A DNA stretch of 37,164 nucleotides from Desulfobacterales bacterium. Lineage in GTDB: Bacteria > Desulfobacterota > Desulfobacteria > Desulfobacterales > UBA5852. Under the pieces are notes generated by a model, which was given only the letters and a program-made list of their open reading frames with translations, was not told the DNA's origin and did not search any database. Below are positions 387 through 32,451 of the stretch, piece by piece; the stretch's first letter is position 1; each line of letters begins with the position of its first letter. A program made the translations under genes and the position numbers. Location of the stretch: positions 1-37,164 of the forward strand of contig JASJCV010000004.1 in NCBI GenBank assembly GCA_030065275.1, in the 5' to 3' direction.

Positions 387-2792
387 ATGGCGGAATCAAA
401 CCAAAACAAGAAGATTGTCAAAAAGCGGGCCCGCAAATCACCGGGATCATGGCGACGGCGCCTGGTGCGCTGGTTTGCGGGCATCACTCTCCTAGTGCTG
501 GTGGCCGGCGGTCTGACCGCTGCAGGGTTCTTTCTGCACATTTCCCGGCAGCTTCCCAAGATTACGAGCCTGGCGGACTACCGGCCGTCTACCGTTTCGG
601 TGGTCTATGCCGATGACGGAGAGAAAATCGCCGAGTTCTACGAAGAGCGCCGCATCGTCCTGCCCTTGGAAGCCATGCCCGACATGCTCGTGGAAGCCTT
701 CCTGGCGGCGGAAGATTCGCGTTTCTACGAACACCGGGGCATCGATTTTGTCAGTATTGTGAGGGCATTTTTCAAAAATATCGAAGCCGGCGAGATCGTC
801 CAGGGCGGCAGCACCATCACCCAGCAGGTCACCAAATCCTTTTTCCTGACCCCGGAGCGCAGCTACAAGCGCAAACTCAAGGAGGCCATCCTGGCCTATC
901 GGATCACCAAGACCTTCAGCAAGCAGGATGTACTCTATCTTTATTTGAACCAGATCTACCTGGGGCACGGGGCCTACGGGGTCGAGGCGGCGGCCGAGAA
1001 CTACTTCGATAAATCGGTTGAAGATTTGAATCTGGCCGAATGCGCCATTCTGGCCGGTCTGCCCCAGGCGCCCAGCCGCTACTCGCCCTACCGCCATCCG
1101 GAACGCGCCCGCAAGCGCCAGCACTACGTGCTGAACCGCATGCAGGAGGAGGGATTCATCACGGCGGAGCAGGCCGAGGAAGCGCGCAGTGCGCCCTGGG
1201 ACATCAAACCGCGCCGCAACTGGTTTGCCGAAAAGGCCCCTTTCTACACCGAGCATGTCCGCCGCTACATCGAACAGAAATACGGCGCCGACGCCATCAA
1301 CCGTGAAGGCCTCAAGATTTTTACGGCCGTCAATCTCGCCATGCAGCACGCCGCCCGCGAGGAGATCGTCAAGGGGCTGCATGAGCTCGACAAGCGCCAG
1401 GGATACCGGGGGCCGCTGACGAACATTCCGGAGGTGGACCGCGAGGACTATCTGAAAACGCTGACCGTGGACCAGGCGGACAGGCTGGAAACCGGTGTGG
1501 AGCTCAAAGGGTTGGTCACCGCCGTGGACAACCGGGCCCTGGTGGTCAAGGCCGACCTGGGCGCGGCTGAAGGCCTGCTGGCCCTGGAAGATATGGACTG
1601 GGCCCGCAAGCCCGATCCGGACGTGGTCTACTGGGCCGCCAAGGTGAAGCGGCCGGGCAATGTCCTGCGGGTCGGGGACGTGATCCAGGTGCGTCTCAAG
1701 GCCGCGCCGGAGCAACCGGGAGAGCCCTGGCCGCTATCCCTCGAGCAGACACCGGTGGCCCAGTCTGCTCTATTGTGCTTCGAGGCCGAAACCGGGTTCG
1801 TGAAAGCCATGATCGGCGGGCGCAGCTTCGAGGAAAGCCAGTTCAACCGTGCCTTTCAGTCGCGGCGTCAGCCAGGCTCGGCCTTCAAGCCGCTCATCTA
1901 CGCCGCGGCCATCGACAAGGGGTATACGCCGGCCTCGATCATTCTCGACTCACCCATCGTGTTCGAGGACACCGAGCGGGACTTCACCTGGAAGCCGAGG
2001 AATTACAAGGAGAAATTTTACGGTCCCACCCGGTTGCGCGAAGCACTGGCCAAATCCCGCAACGTGGTCACGGTCAAACTGCTCAAGGACATCGGCATCG
2101 ATTACGCCATCGACTACAGCCGCAAACTGGGGATCCATTCCCACCTCAACCGGGATCTATCCATCGCTTTAGGCTCTTCCGGCGTCTCGCTTCTGGAGAT
2201 CGTCAACGCCTACTCGGTGTTCGTCAATAATGGCTACCGGGTCAAGCCGATTTTTGTCACCCGTATCGAGGACCGCGACGGCAATGTCCTGGAAGAGGCC
2301 CGTTCGGAAAAGGAGAAGGTCATCGAAAACACCACCGCGTTCATCATGAACAGCATGCTGGAGAGCGTGGTCAAAGAGGGTACCGGCCAGCGGGTCAAGG
2401 CCCTGAACCGCCCCGTGGCCGGCAAGACAGGCACCACCAACAACCTTTATGATGCCTGGTTCGTGGGGTACACGCCGGACTATATTACCGGGGTCTGGGT
2501 TGGCATGGACGAAGAGGCTTCGATGGGTCGCGGAGAAACCGGATCGCGGGCCGCAAGCCCGATCTGGCTGGCCTTCATGCAGAAAGCGATCGCCGCCAAG
2601 CCGGTCAAGGCGTTCGAGGTCCCCGACGGCATCGTCTTCTCCCGCATCGACGCGGAAACGGGTCTGCTCCCCATCCCGGAATCCACCGATACCATTTTCG
2701 AATGTTTCAAGGAAGGCACCGAGCCCACCGAATACACCAAACCACCGGATACGATCGCCGATCCGGAGGACTTCTTCAAGGCCGGCATGTGA
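387..2792 (+). CDS. mrcA: Penicillin-binding protein 1A (bifunctional transglycosylase/transpeptidase)
   Basis: Glycosyltransferase motifs EDSRFYEHRGID and GGSTITQQV; transpeptidase motifs SRNVVTVK and KTGTTNN; TM segment near N-terminus. The ORF opens at 201, but the first 62 codons look non-homologous and overlap a repeat; ATG at 387 (MAESNQNKK) is the likely start. Confidence 0.93.
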   Translation: MAESNQNKKIVKKRARKSPGSWRRRLVRWFAGITLLVLVAGGLTAAGFFLHISRQLPKITSLADYRPSTVSVVYADDGEKIAEFYEERRIVLPLEAMPDMLVEAFLAAEDSRFYEHRGIDFVSIVRAFFKNIEAGEIVQGGSTITQQVTKSFFLTPERSYKRKLKEAILAYRITKTFSKQDVLYLYLNQIYLGHGAYGVEAAAENYFDKSVEDLNLAECAILAGLPQAPSRYSPYRHPERARKRQHYVLNRMQEEGFITAEQAEEARSAPWDIKPRRNWFAEKAPFYTEHVRRYIEQKYGADAINREGLKIFTAVNLAMQHAAREEIVKGLHELDKRQGYRGPLTNIPEVDREDYLKTLTVDQADRLETGVELKGLVTAVDNRALVVKADLGAAEGLLALEDMDWARKPDPDVVYWAAKVKRPGNVLRVGDVIQVRLKAAPEQPGEPWPLSLEQTPVAQSALLCFEAETGFVKAMIGGRSFEESQFNRAFQSRRQPGSAFKPLIYAAAIDKGYTPASIILDSPIVFEDTERDFTWKPRNYKEKFYGPTRLREALAKSRNVVTVKLLKDIGIDYAIDYSRKLGIHSHLNRDLSIALGSSGVSLLEIVNAYSVFVNNGYRVKPIFVTRIEDRDGNVLEEARSEKEKVIENTTAFIMNSMLESVVKEGTGQRVKALNRPVAGKTGTTNNLYDAWFVGYTPDYITGVWVGMDEEASMGRGETGSRAASPIWLAFMQKAIAAKPVKAFEVPDGIVFSRIDAETGLLPIPESTDTIFECFKEGTEPTEYTKPPDTIADPEDFFKAGM

Positions 2793-2800
2793 GTGCCCAA

Positions 2801-2928
2801 CCAGAAAGGGCATCTTTTGGCCCAGGCCGGCGTTCTCGCGCTTTCGAAATCCTCGACGTAGCCTGAGCTACGCCTGCGGTTTCAAAAGCACTGCGGCCTT
2901 GGCCTGAACCAAAATCTACCCCTTCTGG
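2801..2928. repeat. Imperfect palindromic repeat, copy 2 (3' of PBP1A gene)
   Basis: Outer CCAGAAAGGG/CCCCTTCTGG, then TTTTGG/CCAAAA, GCTTTcGAAA/TTTCaAAAGC, central CGTAGcctgagCTACG. Confidence 0.75.
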
Positions 2929-3006
2929 AGGGGCAAAGTTTACCATTGACAGTTGAACGGGCGGCGGGCGGTCGAAGCGCGCACGCGCAGGCCGTTCTAA
3001 ACAAAC

Positions 3007-3046
3007 GCCATCGGCCGCACATCCAGTGAGGATGGCGGCCGATGGC
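3007..3046. terminator. Strong hairpin between convergent mrcA and usp, candidate bidirectional terminator
   Basis: GCCATCGGCCG cac ATCC agtga GGAT gg CGGCCGATGGC; only short T-runs flank it. Confidence 0.45.
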
Positions 3047-3123
3047 TTTGTGACGCATGGCGATGGAGGTGCCCGGTCCCGTGGGTTAACGCTACCGGGC
3101 GGGGTGGTGACCGGTAAACGATC

Positions 3124-3663
3124 TTATTTCTTGTCCGGAAGCCTGACCGAAAGCACGGGTATGCGGGATCTTCGGCTGACCCGGTTGGTGGTGCTGCCCA
3201 TCATGGTGTCCACAAGGGCGCCGCGGCCGTGGGTGCCCATGACGATCAGGTCGCAGTTTTTCTCCTCGGCCGTTTCCAAAATCTGGGCCACCGGGTTGCC
3301 CATCTTGATGACGGTTTCGTCCATGGCGACCTCGTGGTCGTTGGTACCCGGGCGCAGGTTCTGGCAGAAACGTTCCAGCACCTCGCGCACCATGCGGTTG
3401 CCGCGTTTCTTACCGGTCAGGGTCTTCCGGGTTTCATCCAGGTTGCGCTTCTTGATGGCCTCCCACTCGTCCGCACCGATATAACCCTCGACGCCGGCGT
3501 CGACATAGTCGGGGGTCTCGTCGATCACATGCAGGATGACGATCTGGGCGCAGTAGGTGTTGGCCAGGCTGACGGCGTAGGCCATTGCGTAGCGGGCATT
3601 TTCGGACAGATCGGTGGCGTAGAGAATGCGTTTGATTTCCACCGTGGGGATGGTCGTGTTCAT
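3124..3663 (-). CDS. Universal stress protein (UspA family, ATP-binding type)
   Basis: N-terminal RILYATDLSENARYAMAYAVSLA; C-terminal GTHGRGALVDTMMGST matches the GX2GX9G(S/T) ATP-binding motif. Confidence 0.92.
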   Translation of the reverse strand: MNTTIPTVEIKRILYATDLSENARYAMAYAVSLANTYCAQIVILHVIDETPDYVDAGVEGYIGADEWEAIKKRNLDETRKTLTGKKRGNRMVREVLERFCQNLRPGTNDHEVAMDETVIKMGNPVAQILETAEEKNCDLIVMGTHGRGALVDTMMGSTTNRVSRRSRIPVLSVRLPDKK

Positions 3664-3689
3664 GATGTCGTATCAGCTCCGCGTTGAGG

Positions 3690-5630
3690 TTATTCGGCCG
3701 TGGCGGCCGTCTTTTTGCCGAACAGGTTGCGGATCTGCTTCACCCAGATACCGCTCAGCAGGTAGGCGTAAATATAGGTGCCAAAAGCAATCAGCACGAA
3801 GGTAATCGCAATGTCCCGGCCGCTGCCGTTCAGGGAGAAGCCCGGCACGTAGCCGAACAGAAACGGCCCCAGATACAGGAATTTGGCAAATTTGAAAGAG
3901 GCGAAGGCCGTGCGCCACATGTTGGCTTTGGCGATGGTGGCCCCGGCAAAGGCCGCAATGCACACCGGCGGGGTGATGTTGGAGTCCTGGGAGAGCCAGT
4001 AGACGATCATGTGGGCGGCGATTTCGTTGACCCCCAAATGAATCAGAGCCGGCACCGCCACCACGGCCGTAATCAGATAGGCGGCCGTCACCGGAACCCC
4101 CATCCCCAGAATCAGCGAGGCCAGAGCGATCAGCAAAATGGTCAACCACAGCCGACCGGCCGCCATTTGAATGATGATGTCGGCGAACGTGAGCATGAGC
4201 CCGGAGTAGGTCAATACGCCGATAATGATGCCGATAACGCCGACGGTGGCGCCGATTTTCAAACTGCTTTCAGCGCCTTTGCGCGAGGCCTCGACGAATC
4301 GGATCAACTCGGATTTGACCTGAACGCCTCGCCGATGGCGAAAAAAAGCGATCGCCACCGATACAATGATACCCAGCACCAGGATGCCGTTGCCCGTCAG
4401 AAACGATCTCAATTTCTGCGCGGTGGCCGGGCTCATGGTGTCCGGGATGAGCGGTGCCAGCCAACTGCCGATCAGAATCAAGGCCATGATCCAGACCATG
4501 GCAAGATCGATTTTGGTGTCCATTGACTTGTGGCTGACCGCAACGCAGGTGGCCAGGCCGATAATCGCCGAATAGCCGGGAGAAAACCCGTACAGCATTA
4601 AAATGGTAATCACCACCAGCGGCGCGATGTACAGCCATTGCTCCTTGAGAATCACCATGGCGCTGTGTTCGCTTCTTTCGCCGACGATATTGTGCATTTT
4701 GGCTTCATAATGCACCATGACGAACACGCTGAACACGTACATCAGGGCCGGAAAAATCGCCACCAGCATGATTCGGGAATAGGGCTCCCCGGTTAATTCC
4801 GCCATGATAAAGCCGCCAGCACCCATGATCGGCGGCATGAACATCCCCGAGATCGAGGCCGCCGGCTCGATACCCCCGGCGATATGGGGCCTGAAACCGG
4901 CTTTTTTCATCATCGGTATGGTAAATGCACCGGTGGACACGGTGTTGGCGATGGCGCTGCCCGAAATGGAGCCGAACAGGCCGCTGGCGATGACCGAGAC
5001 CTTGGCCGGCCCGCCGACCCTGTGACCGACGGCCGCCAAGGGAAAATCAATAAAAAATCGCTGTGCGCCGCTGCTTTCCAGAAATGCGCCAAAGAGCACA
5101 AATAAGATCACGTATGTGGCCAGGACGTTGGCCATGATACCGAAGACACCGTCGCTTTTGTAAAAAATGCTGGTGCACAAGCCCGGAAAGCTGTCACCGG
5201 CATGGGCGACCAGATCGGGCATGTAAGCGCCGTAGACCCCGTAAAGCAGCAGCACCGTCCCCATGATGACGAACACCGTTCCGACCACCCGACGGGCCAA
5301 TTCGATACCGATGAGCACACCAATGACCGCTACGGCCTTGTCAAAGGGGGTTTCGGCGCCGGTTCGGTAGTTGATGGCTTCGAAATTAAGAATCCAGTAG
5401 CCAATGGAAAAAACCGACAACATGATCAGAATGTAGTCAATGACCCTGAAAAAAGTCTTGTTGGATTTATAGGTCAAAAAGATCAACACGTAGGTGATGA
5501 TCACATAAATGCCCCGGTGGAACTGGGTCGAGGCCGGTTGCAAAACGGCCGAATAGGAGTAAAAAAGGACCAGGAATACGGCAAGGATGTCGAATACGAT
5601 TTTTTCTACGTTATTGAGTTTCGCGTACAC
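3690..5630 (-). CDS. TRAP transporter permease, fused small+large (4TM/12TM) subunits
   Basis: 646 aa, many TM segments; GLFGSISGSAIANTVSTGAFTIPMMKKAGF and EPAASISGMFMPPIMGAGGFIMAELTG are typical of TRAP DctM-like fusion proteins. Confidence 0.93.
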   Translation of the reverse strand: MYAKLNNVEKIVFDILAVFLVLFYSYSAVLQPASTQFHRGIYVIITYVLIFLTYKSNKTFFRVIDYILIMLSVFSIGYWILNFEAINYRTGAETPFDKAVAVIGVLIGIELARRVVGTVFVIMGTVLLLYGVYGAYMPDLVAHAGDSFPGLCTSIFYKSDGVFGIMANVLATYVILFVLFGAFLESSGAQRFFIDFPLAAVGHRVGGPAKVSVIASGLFGSISGSAIANTVSTGAFTIPMMKKAGFRPHIAGGIEPAASISGMFMPPIMGAGGFIMAELTGEPYSRIMLVAIFPALMYVFSVFVMVHYEAKMHNIVGERSEHSAMVILKEQWLYIAPLVVITILMLYGFSPGYSAIIGLATCVAVSHKSMDTKIDLAMVWIMALILIGSWLAPLIPDTMSPATAQKLRSFLTGNGILVLGIIVSVAIAFFRHRRGVQVKSELIRFVEASRKGAESSLKIGATVGVIGIIIGVLTYSGLMLTFADIIIQMAAGRLWLTILLIALASLILGMGVPVTAAYLITAVVAVPALIHLGVNEIAAHMIVYWLSQDSNITPPVCIAAFAGATIAKANMWRTAFASFKFAKFLYLGPFLFGYVPGFSLNGSGRDIAITFVLIAFGTYIYAYLLSGIWVKQIRNLFGKKTAATAE

Positions 5631-12257: not shown

Positions 12258-13181
12258 TCAGGTGCGCAACCGGCTGGTATTGGGTTCGCCTGTTGGACGG
12301 GTCGTCCGGTCCAGGCGTGACGTCAGGTCGGTGAAACAATCATAGGGCACGCTGAAGCTCCCGTCGCCGATCCCCAATTCGATATCGGGCGTGATGGCGC
12401 CGTGGAAATCCGTCCCACCGGTGGCCACCAGATCCAAATGCGCGGCCCAGGCCAGATAGGTTCGGGTTTGTCTTGGGCTGTGTTCCGGATAATAGGCTTC
12501 AATGCCCATCAATCCGCAGGATTGCAGGTGTCGGACCAGGTCTTCCAGACGCCATTCGCCCTCGGGGGCGACCAGTGCGGGGTGGGCCAGGACCGGCGCG
12601 CCCCCGGCACCGCGAATCAATTGGATCGCCGTTTCGCAGCCGATGCGATATTTATCGACATAGGCGGGTCGGCCGCTGCCCAGATAACGCTCGAAGGCCT
12701 CGTCGATGGTGGCGACCATCCCGTTGCGGAGCAGCCAAGCGGCAATGTGCGGCCGGCCGACCTGGCTATCCGTCGATTGTGCTTCCAGGTCGGCCATCGA
12801 AATGTCGATGCCGAGACGGTTGAGTTTGGCGATGATGCGGGGATTGCGGTCCTGGCGGGCGTTCTGAAGCCGTGCCAGGGCGTTCTGTAGATCCGTGTTG
12901 TCGGGATCGACGCCGTAACCCAAAAGGTGCAGGCTGCCCCCGCAGGGGAATCCATCCGGAGATGCCGTACTGATCTCGACGCCGCTGAGAAAGTGAAGGT
13001 CGGGGGGGAGGCCGTTGGTCACAACTGTTTGGACACCGGCCAGGGTATCATGATCCGTGATGGCAATGGCCGCGAGCCCGCACTGGCGTGCGCGGGCGAT
13101 AATCGCGGTCGGGGTCAGCGAGCCGTCGGAAGCCGTGGAATGAATGTGAAGATCGATATTCACATTGGAACTACAACCCAA
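12258..13181 (-). CDS. PHP domain phosphoesterase (YciV/RNase AM-like)
   Basis: NIDLHIHSTASDGSLTP, AIAITDHDTLAGV, VLAHPAL, GIEAYYPEHS, TGGTDFHG. Exact start uncertain (TTG 13181 or downstream GTG). Confidence 0.88.
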   Translation of the reverse strand: MGCSSNVNIDLHIHSTASDGSLTPTAIIARARQCGLAAIAITDHDTLAGVQTVVTNGLPPDLHFLSGVEISTASPDGFPCGGSLHLLGYGVDPDNTDLQNALARLQNARQDRNPRIIAKLNRLGIDISMADLEAQSTDSQVGRPHIAAWLLRNGMVATIDEAFERYLGSGRPAYVDKYRIGCETAIQLIRGAGGAPVLAHPALVAPEGEWRLEDLVRHLQSCGLMGIEAYYPEHSPRQTRTYLAWAAHLDLVATGGTDFHGAITPDIELGIGDGSFSVPYDCFTDLTSRLDRTTRPTGEPNTSRLRT

Positions 13182-13533: not shown

Positions 13534-13892
13534 TAGCGTGCCTTTTGATTCCTATATTTAAGCCCCATTTTAGGAAAAAAAAGCGAATAACACAACCGAT
13601 TCGGCTTGTAAAGCCATAAACAATGGCATTTTAAAGGAAAACGACGATTATATCCGATTTTTCCAGACCGCCGCTTTTTCCGTCCGGCGTCTGAAGTCGC
13701 AAGCAAAGACCAACGCAAATGACCACTTAATCCAATAATTACATAATAAAATAAGCACGATCTTGCGCTTAACCAGCCACGGGGCCGGTGTCCGCGTGTT
13801 CGGCGGCGGGTGGGGATTGCACGTTGTCTTTTCACAGGGACTGTAATAAAAGAGGCGACAGTTGCCGTGGTTGCTCGCCGCTGGTCGAGATG

Positions 13893-14080
13893 GGCCGGTG
13901 GCGGGCTGAAAAGGGAATACGGTGAAATTCCGTAGCGTTGGACCGGCGCTGTGAGCAAGGACCGACGCCGCATGAGCGCCCCGCCGGAAAGGGTCGGGGG
14001 CATGGCCACTGCCCGTATCAAAAGGGCGGGAAGGCGCGGCGTCAGGGATGATCTGCAAGCCAGAAGACCTGCCCGGCAGC
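13893..14080 (+). ncRNA. Cobalamin (B12) riboswitch
   Basis: GCCGGTGGCGGGCTGAAAAGGGAAtacGGTGAAAttCCgt...GCCACTGCCC...GGGCGGGAAGGC...GATGATCTGCAAGCCAGAAGACCTGCCCGGC matches the ordered conserved blocks, including the B12-box. Confidence 0.93.
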
Positions 14081-14110
14081 CCGTCGAGGAAGGATGTTGT
14101 CCGCTGAATT

Positions 14111-14147
14111 CCGTGTGTCGCGCCCCGGCGCGGGATGCGGTTTTTTT
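14111..14147 (+). terminator. Intrinsic terminator of the cobalamin riboswitch expression platform
   Basis: 30-nt near-perfect hairpin CCGTGTGTCGCGCC/GGCGCGGGATGCGG, then TTTTTTT; 73 nt upstream of the ThiC-family ATG. Confidence 0.82.
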
Positions 14148-14220
14148 ATGCCCGATCGCCTCCGCCCGCCGGCGCACCAAATGCTTCGATGACTGGTCAA
14201 CAACGGATGGGAGGTAAAGC

Positions 14221-15543
14221 ATGCAGACACAACTGGAATTGGCCCGCACCGGGGAGACTTCGGCGGCCATGCGCGCCGTGGCGGAGCAGGAAGGCCTGGC
14301 CGCCGAGACGGTCCGGCGCCGGGTGGCGTGCGGTGAAATCGTCATCCCGGGCAATCCGGCGCGTCCCCACCAGAAAACGGTGGGCATCGGTCGGGGGTTG
14401 CGCACCAAGGTCAACGCCTCGATCGGCACATCGTCCGATATCGTCGATATCGACCTCGAGGTGCGCAAGGCCCAGGTGGCGGAAAAGGAAGGGGCCGACA
14501 CCCTGATGGAGCTCTCCACGGGTGGCGATCTGGACCGGGTGCGCCGCGAGGTGCTGTCCCACTGCTGCCTGCCGGTGGGCAACGTCCCCCTCTACCAGGC
14601 CTTTTGCGAGGCGGCGCGTAAATACAGCAATCCCAACCGGCTGGACACGGAATTCCTGTTCGAACTGATCGAAAAACAGCTGGCGGACGGCATCGCCTTC
14701 ATGGCCATTCACTGCGGGATCAACCGCTACACCATCGACCGGCTGCGCCAACAGGGCTATCGCTACGGCGGCCTGGTCTCCAAGGGGGGCACATTCATGG
14801 TGTCCTGGATGGAAACCAACCGGCGGGAGAATCCGCTCTATGAGCATTTCGACCGGGTTTGCGCCCTCATGAAAAAATACGATGCCGTGCTTTCACTGGG
14901 CAACGGGATCCGCGCCGGCGCCATCCACGACAGCCACGACCGGGCCCAGATGGCGGAAATGGTGATCAATTGCGAACTGGCCGAACTGGGCCGCGAAATG
15001 GGCTGCCAGACCATGGTGGAGGGGCCGGGACACGTCCCCCTGGACGAGATCGCGGGCAATATCATGCTTGAAAAGCGAATGAGCGGCAACGCCCCCTACT
15101 ATGTGCTCGGTCCGCTGCCGGCCGACAGCGGGGCCGGCTACGATCATATCACCGCTGCCATCGGGGCGGCGAATGCCGCCCGTCACGGCGCGGATTTGAT
15201 CTGCTACATCACACCGGCCGAGCATCTGGCCCTGCCCAACGTGGAGGACGTTCGCGAAGGGGTGCGGGCCACGCGGCTGGCGGCCCACATCGGCGACATC
15301 GCCAAATACCCGGAGCGGCGCGAGCGCGAAAAAGCCGTGGCCATGGCGCGGCGAGACACGCGCTGGGCGGACCATTTCCAGCATCTGTTGTTTCCGGACC
15401 AAGCCCAAACAGTCCGCGCCAGCCGGGTCCCGGAAAACCGCCAGACCTGCACGATGTGCGGAGATTTCTGCGCCATGGAAAAGGGTATGGTGCTGTTTCA
15501 GCCCGATATCAGCGCGGCCAAAACGGCTCCGGCGAGAGAGTAG
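14221..15543 (+). CDS. bzaF: ThiC-family radical SAM enzyme; predicted 5-hydroxybenzimidazole synthase (BzaF-like) by context
   Basis: ThiC-family sequence (VNASIGTSSD, HCGINRYTIDRL, EGPGHVPLDEI, YYVLGPLPADSGAGYDHI, CTMCGDFCAM); short 440-aa form; downstream of a B12 riboswitch and upstream of cobT. RBS GGGAGG. Family certain; BzaF versus ThiC is inference. Confidence 0.75.
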   Translation: MQTQLELARTGETSAAMRAVAEQEGLAAETVRRRVACGEIVIPGNPARPHQKTVGIGRGLRTKVNASIGTSSDIVDIDLEVRKAQVAEKEGADTLMELSTGGDLDRVRREVLSHCCLPVGNVPLYQAFCEAARKYSNPNRLDTEFLFELIEKQLADGIAFMAIHCGINRYTIDRLRQQGYRYGGLVSKGGTFMVSWMETNRRENPLYEHFDRVCALMKKYDAVLSLGNGIRAGAIHDSHDRAQMAEMVINCELAELGREMGCQTMVEGPGHVPLDEIAGNIMLEKRMSGNAPYYVLGPLPADSGAGYDHITAAIGAANAARHGADLICYITPAEHLALPNVEDVREGVRATRLAAHIGDIAKYPERREREKAVAMARRDTRWADHFQHLLFPDQAQTVRASRVPENRQTCTMCGDFCAMEKGMVLFQPDISAAKTAPARE

Positions 15544-15618
15544 CCTTCGCCATGATTCGTGGTCGGTCATATCTTGCGGCCTCCGGGTGGCAAGATTGAT
15601 CTGATCTTATTTTAAGGT

Positions 15619-15649
15619 GTTACTTTTCTTACCGCTTGAGAAAAGTAAC
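15619..15649. repeat. Perfect 11-bp inverted repeat GTTACTTTTCT-N9-AGAAAAGTAAC
   Basis: Read directly in the gap between the ThiC-family gene and cobT. Confidence 0.75.
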
Positions 15650-15723
15650 CAATAACTAAAGAGCGTTGGTTTCCCCACGCTGAATAAAAGAAAAATTATA
15701 ATTTTTCATCGATAGGAGTCATC

Positions 15724-16785
15724 ATGGAACGGCTGCAAGCATGCATCAAGGCGATCACCCCGCCCGGCCGCAGGTGGCGCGAGAAGGCGCTGGAGCGGCT
15801 GCGGCAGCAGGCCCGCCCGGCCGGAAGCCTCGGCATGCTCGAGGACATCGGTGCAAGGCTGGCCGGCATTTTTCAAACCCTGGACGTGCGTCTGGAGCGC
15901 AAGGTGATCGTCACCTGTGCCGGCGACCACGGCATCTGCGAGGAGGGGGTAAGTCTGTTCCCTCAGGAGGTCACCCCCCAGATGGTCCATAATTTCGTCC
16001 GCGGCGGGGCCTCGATCAACGTGCTGGCCAGACATGCCGGGGCCGAGGTCCGGGTGGCCGATCTGGGGGTCGCTGAGGATTTCGCGCCGGACCTGCCGAT
16101 CTTCCACAAGAAAATTGCCAGAGGCACGCGTAATTTCTCCGCGGGTCCGGCCATGACGCGCACTCAGGCGGTGGCCAGCCTGGAGGCCGGTATCGATATC
16201 GTGGAAACCATTCTGGCTGAAGGCCCGGTCCAGCTTTTCGGCACCGGGGATATGGGGATCGGCAATACCACGCCCTCCACGGCCATCATCGCGGCCTATT
16301 CCGGCATGCGCCTCGAGGCCCTGACCGGGCGCGGTACGGGGATCGATGACGAGGGGCTGTTGCGCAAGCAGGCGGCCATCCACAAGGGGCTGCAGATCAA
16401 CCAGCCCGATCCTGCCGACGCCTTGGATGTGCTGGCCAAGGTGGGCGGTTTCGAGATCGGCGGCATCGCCGGTATCGTCATCGGCGCCGCCGCCCGGGGT
16501 ATCCCGGTGGTCTGCGACGGCCTGATCGCCACGGCCGGGGCCCTGATCGCCTGCGAGCTGGCGCCCGGCGCGCGCGAATACCTGTTCGCCAGCCATCGTT
16601 CAGTGGAGGTGGGCCACCGCTACATGCTCGACCACCTCGGGCTGGAGCCCCTGCTGGATCTGCGCTTCAGGCTGGGGGAGGGCACCGGCGCGGCCGTGGC
16701 CATGGAACTGATCGATGCGGCCACCCGCGTGCTGGCGGACATCAAGACGTTCGAGGAGGTGGCCATCGCCGATGCGCAGGGCTGA
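15724..16785 (+). CDS. cobT: Nicotinate-nucleotide--dimethylbenzimidazole phosphoribosyltransferase
   Basis: RPAGSLGMLEDIGARLAGI, VTCAGDHGICEEGVSLFPQEVTPQMV, FGTGDMGIGNTTPSTAI, RLGEGTGAAVAMEL (conserved catalytic Glu region). Confidence 0.96.
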   Translation: MERLQACIKAITPPGRRWREKALERLRQQARPAGSLGMLEDIGARLAGIFQTLDVRLERKVIVTCAGDHGICEEGVSLFPQEVTPQMVHNFVRGGASINVLARHAGAEVRVADLGVAEDFAPDLPIFHKKIARGTRNFSAGPAMTRTQAVASLEAGIDIVETILAEGPVQLFGTGDMGIGNTTPSTAIIAAYSGMRLEALTGRGTGIDDEGLLRKQAAIHKGLQINQPDPADALDVLAKVGGFEIGGIAGIVIGAAARGIPVVCDGLIATAGALIACELAPGAREYLFASHRSVEVGHRYMLDHLGLEPLLDLRFRLGEGTGAAVAMELIDAATRVLADIKTFEEVAIADAQG

Positions 16786-27123: not shown

Positions 27124-30100
27124 ATGAACGAACCCGTTATCAAGATCAAAGGCGCTCGCCAGCACAACCTCAAAAACCTCGACCTGGAGATCCCCCTGCA
27201 GCGCTTTACCGTGGTCACCGGGGTCAGTGGATCGGGCAAGTCGTCCCTGGCCCTCGACACGCTCTATGCTGAGGGCCAGCGCCGCTACGTGGAAACCTTT
27301 TCGCCCTACGCCCGCCAGTTCATGGACCGCATGGACCGGCCGCGGGTGGACAAGATCACCGGCATTCCCCCGGCCATCGCCATCGACCGCAAGGATCCCG
27401 TGCGCACCTCCCGCTCCAGCGTGGGCACCATGACCGAGATCACCGACTATGTCAAAATCCTTTTCGCCCGCCTGGCCGTGCTGCACTGTGCCTCTTGCGG
27501 CCGACCGGTCGTGCCCGAAACCCCCCAGGCCATCTGGCAGCGGCTCCGGTCGCTGCCGGAGGGCGAGCGCCTGGTGATCACCTTCCCGCTGGCTGCCGGG
27601 CAGCTCGACGACGATGGCAGTCCGGCGGCCATCCGCCGCAGCCTGCGGCGCCTGGGATTCGATCGCCTTTTTCACGATGGTTCGGTGGTGGACATCGACG
27701 ACTGGGCCTTTGCGCCCGCAGATCCGCCCCCGGACGTGGTGGTCGACCGGGTCGTCCTGCGTCGCGACCGGCGCGAACGGACCATCGACTCGCTCGAGAT
27801 GGCCCTGCGGTTTGGCGGCGGCCAGCTGACGGTCTGGCCCTCTACGGGCCGGCGCCTGGATTTCAGCAGCCGCCTGTCGTGCGCCCGATGCGGCCTGGAC
27901 TTCAGTCCGCCGCTGCCCAACCTGTTTTCGTTCAACAGCCCCATCGGCGCCTGCGAAACATGCCGGGGCTTCGGCCGCGTGATCGATATCGACCTGGACC
28001 TGATCATTCCCGACCGCGGCCTTTCCCTGGCCGAAGGAGCAGTCAAACCCTGGGGCCGTCGCGATGCCGACAACCCGCGGGTGGAGTTCGACGACCTCAT
28101 GGCTTTCTGCCGCCGGGCCCGGATTCCCACGGACATGCCCTTCGGGCGGCTGAAGAAAAGCCAGCAGCGGGCGATCGTCGACGGCACGGACGACTACTAC
28201 GGGATCCGCGGTTTTTTCCAATGGCTCGAGACCAAAACCTATAAAATGCACGTGCGCGTGTTTCTTTCGCGCTACCGCAGCTACAATGCCTGTCCGGACT
28301 GCGGCGGCACACGCTTCAAGCCCGAAACCCTTCTCTACCGGCTGGCCGGGGAAAACATTGGCGCCATCTACGCCCTGAACATCGACGCGGCCACGACCTT
28401 TTTCGACGGGCTGGGCGACATTGCCCGCAACGAGGCCGACCGCCTGGTGCTGGACGAGGTTCGCGGCCGCCTGCGCTACCTCCAGGACGTGGGCCTGGGC
28501 TACCTCACCCTGGACCGCCAGTCGCGCACTCTTTCCGGCGGGGAGGTCCAGCGCGTTTCTCTGGCTTCGGCACTGGGCTCCTCGCTGACCAACACCCTCT
28601 ACGTGCTGGACGAGCCCAGCATCGGCCTGCATCCCCGCGACAACCACCGCCTGATCGGGATCCTCAAAGGACTGCGCAAACTGGGCAACACCGTGGTGGT
28701 GGTGGAGCACGACCCGGACATCATCCGCGCCAGCGACTACATCCTGGACATGGGTCCGCGGGCCGGGGAACAAGGCGGTGAAATCCAGTATTTCGGGCCC
28801 ACCACCGGCATCAACGGTTCGCTGACCGGGGACTATCTCCGGGGGGCGAAGACCATTGCCGTCCCGGACAGGCGCCGTTTGCCGGATGAGCGGCGGCTTA
28901 CGATCCGGGCCGCCGCCCAGCACAACCTGCAGGCCATCGACGTGTCCATTCCGCTGGGGCTCTTCGTGGTGCTCACCGGGGTGTCCGGCTCGGGCAAGTC
29001 CACCCTGGCGGAGGAGATCGTCTACCGGGCGCTCAAGAAGCACCTGGGCGATTCCCAGGGCCGCCCCGGCCGCCACCGGGCGCTCGAGGGCGCGGACCTG
29101 GTGGGCGACGTGGCCCTGGTGGACCAGCGCCCCATCGGACGCACCCCCCGGGCCAACGCCCTGACCTACACCAAGGCCATGGACCCCATCCGCCGCCTGC
29201 TGGCCGCCACCGACGATGCCCGCTCCCAGGGCTTCGGGCCGGGGCATTTCTCCTTCAACGTGGACGGCGGGCGTTGCGAGACCTGCAAGGGCGACGGGTT
29301 CGAGAAAATCGAAATGCAGTTTCTCTCGGACGTCTACGTGGCCTGCCCCGGGTGCAACGGGAAGCGCTTTAAACCTGAAATTCTGTCTGTGACCTACAAC
29401 GGCCGCAACGTGGACGAAATTCTCAACCTGACGGTGGACCAGGCCCTGGTTTTTTTCACCGACCGCCGGCAGATCACAGGCGCGCTGCGCCCGCTGGCGG
29501 ACGTGGGGCTGGGGTATCTACGCCTGGGGCAGCCGCTCAACACGCTTTCCGGTGGCGAGGCCCAGCGCCTCAAACTCTCGCGTTTCCTGGCGCCCCGCCG
29601 CACAACCAAAGCCGGCGGCGCTCCGCTGCTTATATTCGACGAACCCACCACCGGGCTGCACTTCGAAGACATCCGCATCCTGCTCAAGGCCATGCAGACG
29701 CTGGTGGACCGCGGCCACAGCGTGCTCGTGATCGAGCACAACCTGGACGTGATCAAGGCGGCGGACTGGATCATCGACCTGGGGCCGGGCGGCGGGGACG
29801 CCGGCGGCCGGGTGGTGGCCCAGGGCCCCCCCGAAGCCCTAGCTCGGGTCCGCGATTCCCACACCGGTCGATTTCTGGAGGCGGCGCTGGCGGCCGAAGG
29901 AAGGGACAGCGTCACCCGGACAGCGGCGGATGCGGTGGCCGAGGCGGCCGCCGCCTTCACGCCCGCCCCGGCGTCCGAAACGATCCACATCCGGGGCGCC
30001 CGGGAGCACAACCTGCGGAACCTGGATGTCGCCATCCCCCACCGGGAGTTGGTGGTGCTCACCGGCGTTTCGGGGTCGGGCAAATCCACCCTGGCCTTCG

Positions 30101-32451
30101 ATATTCTGTTCGCCGAGGGCCAGCGTCGCTATCTGGAAAGCCTGGCCCCCTACGTGCGCCAGTATATGAAAATCCTGGAGCGTCCCGAGGTGGATCTCGT
30201 CACCGGACTGGCGCCCACCGTGGCCATCGAACAGCGCATCAGCCACGCCAGCCGCCGCTCCACCGTGGCCACCCTGACCGAAATCTACCATTTCCTGCGC
30301 CTGCTTTACAGCAAACTGGGCAGCCAGCACTGCACCGGATGCGGGCGGGCCCTTACGGCCCAGTCGCCCGAGGAGATCCTGGCGCAGATCAACACCCGTT
30401 TCTCCAAGGGACCGGGATGGATCCTGGCCCCCAAGATTGCCGGGCGCAAGGGCTTCCACAAAGAGGTCTTCAGCCAGGCGCTCAAGAAGGGGATCAAGCG
30501 CGCCCGGGTGGACGGGGTGCTCACGGCCATCGAGGCGGGCATGGCGCTGAGCCGCTACCACGAGCACACCATCGAACTGGTGGTGGGCAGCCTGGCCGCC
30601 AAGGACCGGGCCGGCATCGTGGCCCAAGCCCTTGAGGCGGGCGACGGCAGCCTGATCGTGCTGCGGGGAAAGAGGGAAGAAATTTTCAGCCGCCACGGCG
30701 TCTGCCCGGACTGCGGTATCGGGCTCGAAAAACTCGATCCCCGCCTGTTCTCCTTCAACAGCCGCCAGGGGGCCTGTCCCCAATGCAACGGCCTGGGGCA
30801 AATCGGAGGCGAGGACGACGAGGGGCCGCGCGAGACCTGCCCGGCCTGCAAAGGCAGCCGCCTGCGCCCCGAGGCCCTGGCCGTAACGGTGCGGGGTCGC
30901 TCGATCTGGGACCTGGTCCGACAGCCGGCGCGGGCGCTGGCGGCCGAGCTCGGCCGTTGGCGTTTTCCCCGCCACCAGCAGGCCGTGGCGGCGCCGGTCA
31001 TGGCCGAAACCCTCTCCCGGCTGTCGCTGCTGAACCGACTGGGCCTGGGCTACCTCTCTCTGGGACGCAGCGGCGACACGCTATCGGGGGGCGAAGCCCA
31101 GCGGGTGCGGCTGGCGGCCCAGCTGGGCTCCAACCTCACCGGTGTGACTTATGTTCTGGACGAGCCCACCATCGGACTGCACCCGCGGGACAATGGCATC
31201 CTGGTGGACGCCCTCAAGGAGCTGCGCGACCGCGGCAACACCATCGTGGTGGTAGAGCACGACGAGGAGACCATCCGGGCCGCCGACACCATCATCGACC
31301 TCGGCCCCGGCGCCGGGGAACTGGGGGGGCGGATCGTGGCCCGGGGGCGTATCGAAGATCTTCGTAAAGCCCAGGAATCGATTACGGGCGCCTTTCTCGG
31401 CGCCGGTCACAGCGGCAATGGCTCGCGCCTGCGCCTGCGGCCCAAGACACCCCGCCTCAAAATCCACGGGGCGGCCGCCAACAATCTTCGGCGCATCAAG
31501 GCCGAGCTGCCGCTGGGCTGCCTGGTGAGCGTCACCGGGGTAAGCGGGTCGGGCAAGTCGTCGCTGCTTAAGGAGGTCGTCTACAGGAACCTGGCCAACC
31601 TTCTGGGCCGGCGCCACGATCCGGCCGGTGCCTGCCGGCGGGTCACCGGGTGGCAGGCCCTGGATCGCGTGTTGGAGGTGGACCACAGCCCCATCGGCCG
31701 GACCCCGCGTTCGGTGCCGGCTTCCTACGTGGGGTTTCTGGCCGACATCCGCAAACTCTTCGCGCTTACTCCGGAGGCCCGCGCCCGGGGCTACCAGCCC
31801 GGTCGCTTTTCCTTCAACCTTGCGGGTGGGCGCTGCGAAGCCTGCCAGGGCCAGGGCCACCCCAAGGTGGCCATGAGTTTCCTGCCCGATGTCTACGTGC
31901 CCTGCGAGATCTGCCGGGGCGCGCGCTTCAACACCGAAACCCTGGCCATCACCTTCCGGGGCAAGACGATGGCCGAGGTGCTGGGCATGACGTTTGCCGA
32001 GGCCCTGCAGTTCTTCCACGCCATCCCCAACATCCGCAAAGCCGTTCAGTTTGTCTGCGACATCGGCCTGGGCTACCTGCGCCTGGGCCAGCCCAGTCCG
32101 ACCCTTTCGGGCGGCGAGGCCCAGCGCATCAAGCTGGCCCGCCAGCTGGTCAAACCCGCCCGCGGCCACACCCTTTTCATCCTGGACGAACCCACCACCG
32201 GACTGCACCTGGCCGATGTCACCCGGCTGGTGGACGTCCTCCAGGATTTAGTGGACCGGGGCAACACCGTGGCCGTGATCGAGCACAACCTCGACTTTAT
32301 CGCGGCCTCGGACTATATCATCGACCTCGGTCCCGAGGGCGGCGACCAGGGCGGGACGATCGTGGCCGCCGGGCCCCCGGCGGAAATCATGCGCCAGACC
32401 CGAAAATCCCACACGGCCAAGGCCCTGAAGGCCCATCTTAAAAAGAAATAA
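27124..32451 (+). CDS. uvrA: Tandem (double-length) excinuclease ABC subunit UvrA with four ABC NBDs
   Basis: 1775 aa; four Walker A motifs (TGVSGSGKS), four TLSGGE signatures; two complete UvrA-like halves, the second starting near aa 952 ([18 protein letters not shown]). Zn-binding CX2C modules in both halves. Confidence 0.96.

Follow-up and report, generated by a model that had tools for sequence, protein, structure and literature searches.

The anaerobic pathway to 5-hydroxybenzimidazole and its enzyme BzaF are already known (Hazra 2015 and Mehta 2015, as cited in PMC6461909). Geobacter sulfurreducens has bzaF together with cobT and makes Factor III (reviewed in PMC8123684). In this organism CobU is GSU3010, BzaF is GSU3005, and the product is 5-OHBza-cobamide (PMC7726332). 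Moorella thermoacetica carries the operon bzaA-bzaB-cobT-bzaC (PMC8123684). Shelton et al. found bzaF or bzaAB in 88 of 10,591 genomes, and BzaAB is reported in Seep-SRB1a (PMC10553843). A literature search returned no paper pairing bzaF with sulfate reducers.

Here we analyze a stretch of 37,164 nt from a Desulfobacterales bacterium (GCA_030065275.1, contig JASJCV010000004.1, positions 1 to 37,164), which is referred to as the window. On its plus strand a cobalamin riboswitch is followed by a hairpin with a U7 tract, an ORF of the ThiC superfamily and cobT. The features are as follows.

13850..14090, plus strand: cobalamin (B12) riboswitch aptamer RF00174, full-length match in Rfam
14111..14147, plus strand: hairpin and then U7, probably the intrinsic terminator in the expression platform of the riboswitch, from RNA folding
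14221..15543, plus strand: predicted bzaF, 5-hydroxybenzimidazole synthase, ThiC-superfamily radical-SAM protein of 440 aa, from PF01964, tree clade and residue fingerprint
15619..15649, plus strand: 11-bp perfect inverted repeat between bzaF and cobT, one match, 0 of 100 shuffles
15724..16785, plus strand: cobT, nicotinate-nucleotide:benzimidazole phosphoribosyltransferase of 353 aa, from TIGR03160

This order of elements on one strand had been proposed in the initial annotation and is borne out by Rfam, RNA folding, PF01964 and TIGR03160. The coordinates given there are right overall, but the start at 13893 lies about 40 nt inside the riboswitch. RF00174 is matched over its full length (1-189) with 74 bits against a gathering threshold of 31.5 (E 1.3e-16), and it is the sole riboswitch that Rfam finds across the entire 37-kb window. 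Between positions 13000 and 17400 no TPP or other riboswitch family is seen even at E<=1. The terminator hairpin (14111-14140) has 12 bp with one mismatch and is directly followed by U7 (14141-14147). It folds as an intrinsic terminator, with a z-score of only -1.4; a strict terminator scan does not list it, probably because of the internal mismatch. CobT scores 430.7 bits with TIGR03160, above the equivalog cut-off of 319.3. In agreement with the initial annotation, no thiamin-biosynthesis gene adjoins the pair, and the opposite-strand flanks carry DksA-type, PHP-domain and PyrE-like genes.

In many relatives cobT adjoins bzaF. The gap between the two genes is 180 nt in the window, 317 nt in G003 and 9 nt in the congener G004. 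Hairpin repeats of differing sequence are found between them in two congeners (window 15619-15649; L035:9005-9321), while in two other congeners the genes are adjacent or overlap, and the repeats are probable small insertions. We suggest that the inverted repeat of the window is probably such a small inserted repeat and not a functional part of the locus. Elsewhere in the window (27124-32451) a UvrA-like ORF of 1775 aa reads, as judged by eye, as a tandem double-length UvrA.

The 440-aa protein matches PF01964 with 583 bits. Four families of NCBIfam release 20 match it, with no BzaF model among them, and it exceeds the ThiC models (NF009895, 571 vs 410; TIGR00190, 518 vs 460). Passing these equivalog models speaks for a true ThiC that has become regulated by B12 and provides HMP-P to thiamin synthesis. 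However, all five of the other BzaF-type proteins scanned also exceed the cut-offs, hence the ThiC models do not discriminate BzaF from ThiC, and automatic annotation would probably call these proteins ThiC. Assignment as BzaB was considered and ranked low, with 502.2 bits against the 700-bit cut-off of TIGR04386. A PDB search for a BzaF structure at E<=0.001 gave ThiC matches only.

The phylogeny argues against a true ThiC. PF01964 separates the proteins of 58 relatives into two score classes, most at ~610-662 bits and the window type at ~561-592 bits. The same split is present in 13 genomes reached via named loci (633-663 vs 566-584 bits), and the two classes occur also in the family of a Geobacteraceae MAG. 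We built a maximum-likelihood tree of 86 proteins, with members of the Geobacteraceae syntenic slot described below included and GSU3005 and the Firmicutes BzaA/BzaB sequences absent. In it a clade of 41 rows (the window protein and 40 others) is split from 45 ThiC rows with a support of 100/100 and a branch length of 1.46, and E. coli ThiC is located on the side opposite to the window protein. The ThiC side also includes a few low-scoring proteins of relatives (L041, L043, L046, L049, and L050). Long branches may explain why these group with E. coli ThiC, but the BzaF/ThiC split is not affected. A second copy, belonging to the ThiC clade, is present in several relatives, among them G004, and in most named genomes, which also speaks against the true-ThiC reading. 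Copies of bzaF ~75-77% identical to that of the window are present in MAGs named Kiritimatiellia, Victivallaceae and Holophagaceae (L098, L100, and L107); these are either gene transfers or misbinned contigs. Among cultured organisms, Desulfosarcina alkanivorans and Desulfocicer vacuolatum carry the gene.

The two types are also preceded by different riboswitches. In 15 of 15 genomes of relatives with a window-type copy, RF00174 directly precedes this copy on the same strand. In further loci, where Rfam replaced a B12-box regular expression because the latter missed many real riboswitches, RF00174 is found upstream in 25 of 25 cases and directly upstream in 22; in L098, L101, and L105 it lies 1.4-2.5 kb upstream of bzaF on the same strand. 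ThiC-clade copies have a TPP riboswitch directly upstream in G004, G015, G048, and G050, and farther upstream in G022 and G052. No TPP riboswitch was found at window-type copies in the relatives scanned. The window protein thus differs from ThiC, with its TPP riboswitches and thiamin setting, in having a B12 riboswitch and a B12 setting.

Other genes are found next to cobalamin riboswitches as well. In the genome of the window a second one (L199:7271-9841, G000:C210) is followed by genes for a zinc-type dehydrogenase and a phosphoribosyltransferase of the TrpD family. G003 has this pair after a cobalamin riboswitch as well (L243:5130-7393), and in L076 a more distant pair (2412-4504) immediately precedes the bzaF riboswitch.

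The connection to the Geobacter enzyme is given by synteny. In Geobacteraceae the sister-clade gene (X) has its place in the order cobU-cobT-cobS-(cobC)-cbiA-X-cbiC-cbiD, and in four of the scanned stretches a cobalamin riboswitch stands at the beginning of the operon. The spacing of this slot matches that from GSU3010 (CobU) to GSU3005 (BzaF), and the gene order suggests that the slot gene is the same gene as GSU3005. Like GSU3005, the window protein is a single-gene ThiC-superfamily radical-SAM protein in a B12-biosynthesis setting with no adjoining tailoring genes, and by synteny it is linked to GSU3005 through the clade that it shares with the slot proteins. However, unlike in Geobacteraceae, where bzaF lies inside a large cob/cbi operon, in the window the riboswitch, bzaF and cobT form a two-gene unit with the corrin operon elsewhere. 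With the BzaA/BzaB systems of M. thermoacetica and Eubacterium limosum the window shares a ThiC paralog for 5-hydroxybenzimidazole (predicted for the window) and cobT in the operon, but those organisms need two proteins and their operon has bzaC (and bzaD/E).

To compare the residues of the two groups we used 107 BzaF-type and 74 ThiC-type proteins (181 in total) of Desulfobacterota and Geobacteraceae. Sixteen alignment columns separate the groups almost without exception. S67, E97, A162, K188, N228, A232, and S288 (window numbering) are invariant in all 107 BzaF-type proteins, whereas the ThiC-type proteins have N, D, T, R, D, P, and C in these columns with three exceptions (at column 97, at column 288 or a gap). 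Columns 162, 188, 228, and 232 sort all 181 proteins. In the alignments N228 of the window corresponds to D394 of E. coli and to the Asp of GDG in the Arabidopsis chain. In AtThiC the corresponding Asp383 is hydrogen bonded to N3 of AIR; the D383A variant forms no HMP-P and D383N has only partial activity (PMC11117688). Spacing agrees with the assignment of this column, as D383 and E422 are separated by 39 residues, like their counterparts in the aligned chain and N228 and E267 in the window; similarly, E413 and C474 of CcThiC are 61 residues apart, like E267 and C328. The aspartate required by ThiC to form HMP-P is replaced with asparagine in 107 of 107 BzaF-type proteins, which speaks against a true ThiC. 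N239 and R354 of E. coli (S67 and K188 in the window) are presumably also substrate contacts, as given in the UniProt annotation of ThiC.

At the same time the window protein retains what is common to ThiC: the fold family, the predicted AIR substrate, the active-site Glu and Cys, the metal-ligand histidines and the three-cysteine cluster motif. All 181 proteins have this Glu and the catalytic Cys, both of the metal-ligand histidines and the three cysteines of the cluster motif (C410, C413, and C417 of the C-terminal motif in the window). The catalytic and ligand residues are thus conserved while those of the substrate site are changed, and therefore the BzaF group retains the radical machinery and alters the substrate pocket. 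The N, R and D of the ThiC substrate site are S, K and N in the window, and these swaps at positions 67, 188, and 228 are fixed across the compared Desulfobacterota and Geobacteraceae proteins. We tentatively suggest that the Asn-to-Ser, Arg-to-Lys and Asp-to-Asn replacements could possibly be the switch that directs the AIR radical cascade from the pyrimidine of ThiC to the 5-hydroxybenzimidazole of BzaF. The spacing of the cluster cysteines, CX2CX3C in the window and CX2CX4C in plant and E. coli ThiC, does not serve as a further marker of BzaF, since CX2CX3C is found in nearly all of the short ThiC proteins from relatives too.

Thiamin genes of the genus bear on the same question. No second ThiC-family gene was found in the genome of the window (G000). 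At 81% completeness, the assembly may lack a separate thiC. The congener G002 (99% complete) also has the window-type copy only, and this is the other point that favors a true ThiC; G004, which is 7% contaminated, has both types. However, ThiG is not found over the cut-off in any of the five congeneric genomes, and thiamin synthesis from scratch is therefore unlikely in them. The initial annotation had named as refuting evidence a protein that clades with ThiC and is encoded by the single thiC in a genome prototrophic for thiamin. It is indeed the sole ThiC-family gene found, but it stands outside the ThiC clade, and the argument fails since the genus has no ThiG. Taken with the tree and the Asn, this makes a true ThiC very improbable.

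A bifunctional enzyme, forming both 5-hydroxybenzimidazole and HMP-P and thus replacing the missing ThiC of G000 and G002, would account for the lack of another ThiC in these two genomes, and the partial HMP-P activity of AtThiC D383N (PMC11117688) is in its favor. Nevertheless, we consider it just as improbable: control is by B12 and not by TPP, thiazole synthesis is missing too, and two TPP riboswitches beside transport genes in the genome of the window suggest uptake. These two are divergent and lie between an ECF-type double ATPase and an ABC permease (L052:5593-6078, G000:C260); divergent pairs occur also in G002 and G004. The transporters presumably take up thiamin or its pyrimidine. Hence, the identification of the ThiC-like gene of the window as bzaF and not thiC, already proposed in the initial annotation, is strongly supported by comparative evidence, namely phylogeny, riboswitch class in relatives, synteny with Geobacter, active-site residues, the lack of ThiG in the genus and the lack of any further ThiC in its most complete genome with low contamination.

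As for the product, the genome of the window has on contig C188 the genes cbiA, cbiC, cbiD, cbiET, cbiF, cbiG, cbiH, btuR, cbiP, cobU, and cobS, where cbiET, cbiF, and cbiH were identified by reading the sequence without a model. By its predicted gene content this anaerobic corrin operon is near-complete. It has no cobT, which adjoins bzaF instead. BzaD and BluB are not found over the model cut-off in any of 15 genomes, and Factor III, predicted earlier, is consistent with this and is the favored candidate for the product. The ligand might be modified further, to 5-methoxybenzimidazole or beyond, by a BzaC-type methyltransferase encoded elsewhere: the genome is 81% complete, the models searched were those of BzaD and BluB, and a BzaD-like protein close to the cut-off occurs in one relative. 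We regard this as unlikely, as no bzaC adjoins cobT in the window, BzaD is lacking over the cut-off in the 15 genomes, and G. sulfurreducens, which has both bzaF and cobT, produces 5-OHBza-cobamide (PMC8123684). The BzaD-like radical-SAM protein of that relative (L188, G054:C1:642801-644090) scores 407 vs 450 bits with TIGR04385, and a more modified benzimidazole may be made there.

We therefore consider it very probable that the locus is a B12-repressed bzaF-cobT unit for conversion of AIR to 5-hydroxybenzimidazole, with Factor III as the expected cobamide. The following sequence of events is proposed. When adenosylcobamide is scarce, the riboswitch would allow read-through of the terminator and thereby expression of bzaF and cobT. 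BzaF would then use SAM and its [4Fe-4S] cluster for the conversion of AIR to 5-hydroxybenzimidazole. CobT would transfer the latter onto the ribose phosphate from nicotinate mononucleotide. CobU and CobS, whose genes accompany the corrin operon on a different contig, would join the lower ligand to the corrin, presumably giving 5-hydroxybenzimidazolyl-cobamide (Factor III).

What is new here is the occurrence of BzaF members in sulfate-reducer-type bacteria, the compact two-gene arrangement and the residue test against ThiC. Which organisms can share a cobamide is determined by the chemistry of its lower ligand. As ThiC models catch BzaF-type proteins, the organisms carrying them may be assigned a thiamin synthesis that is absent, and the cobamide type may be missed. 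The fingerprint and the riboswitch class together give a direct means to re-sort such ThiC-labelled genes, and with the Asp-to-Asn change the split between ThiC and BzaF products becomes testable by mutagenesis.
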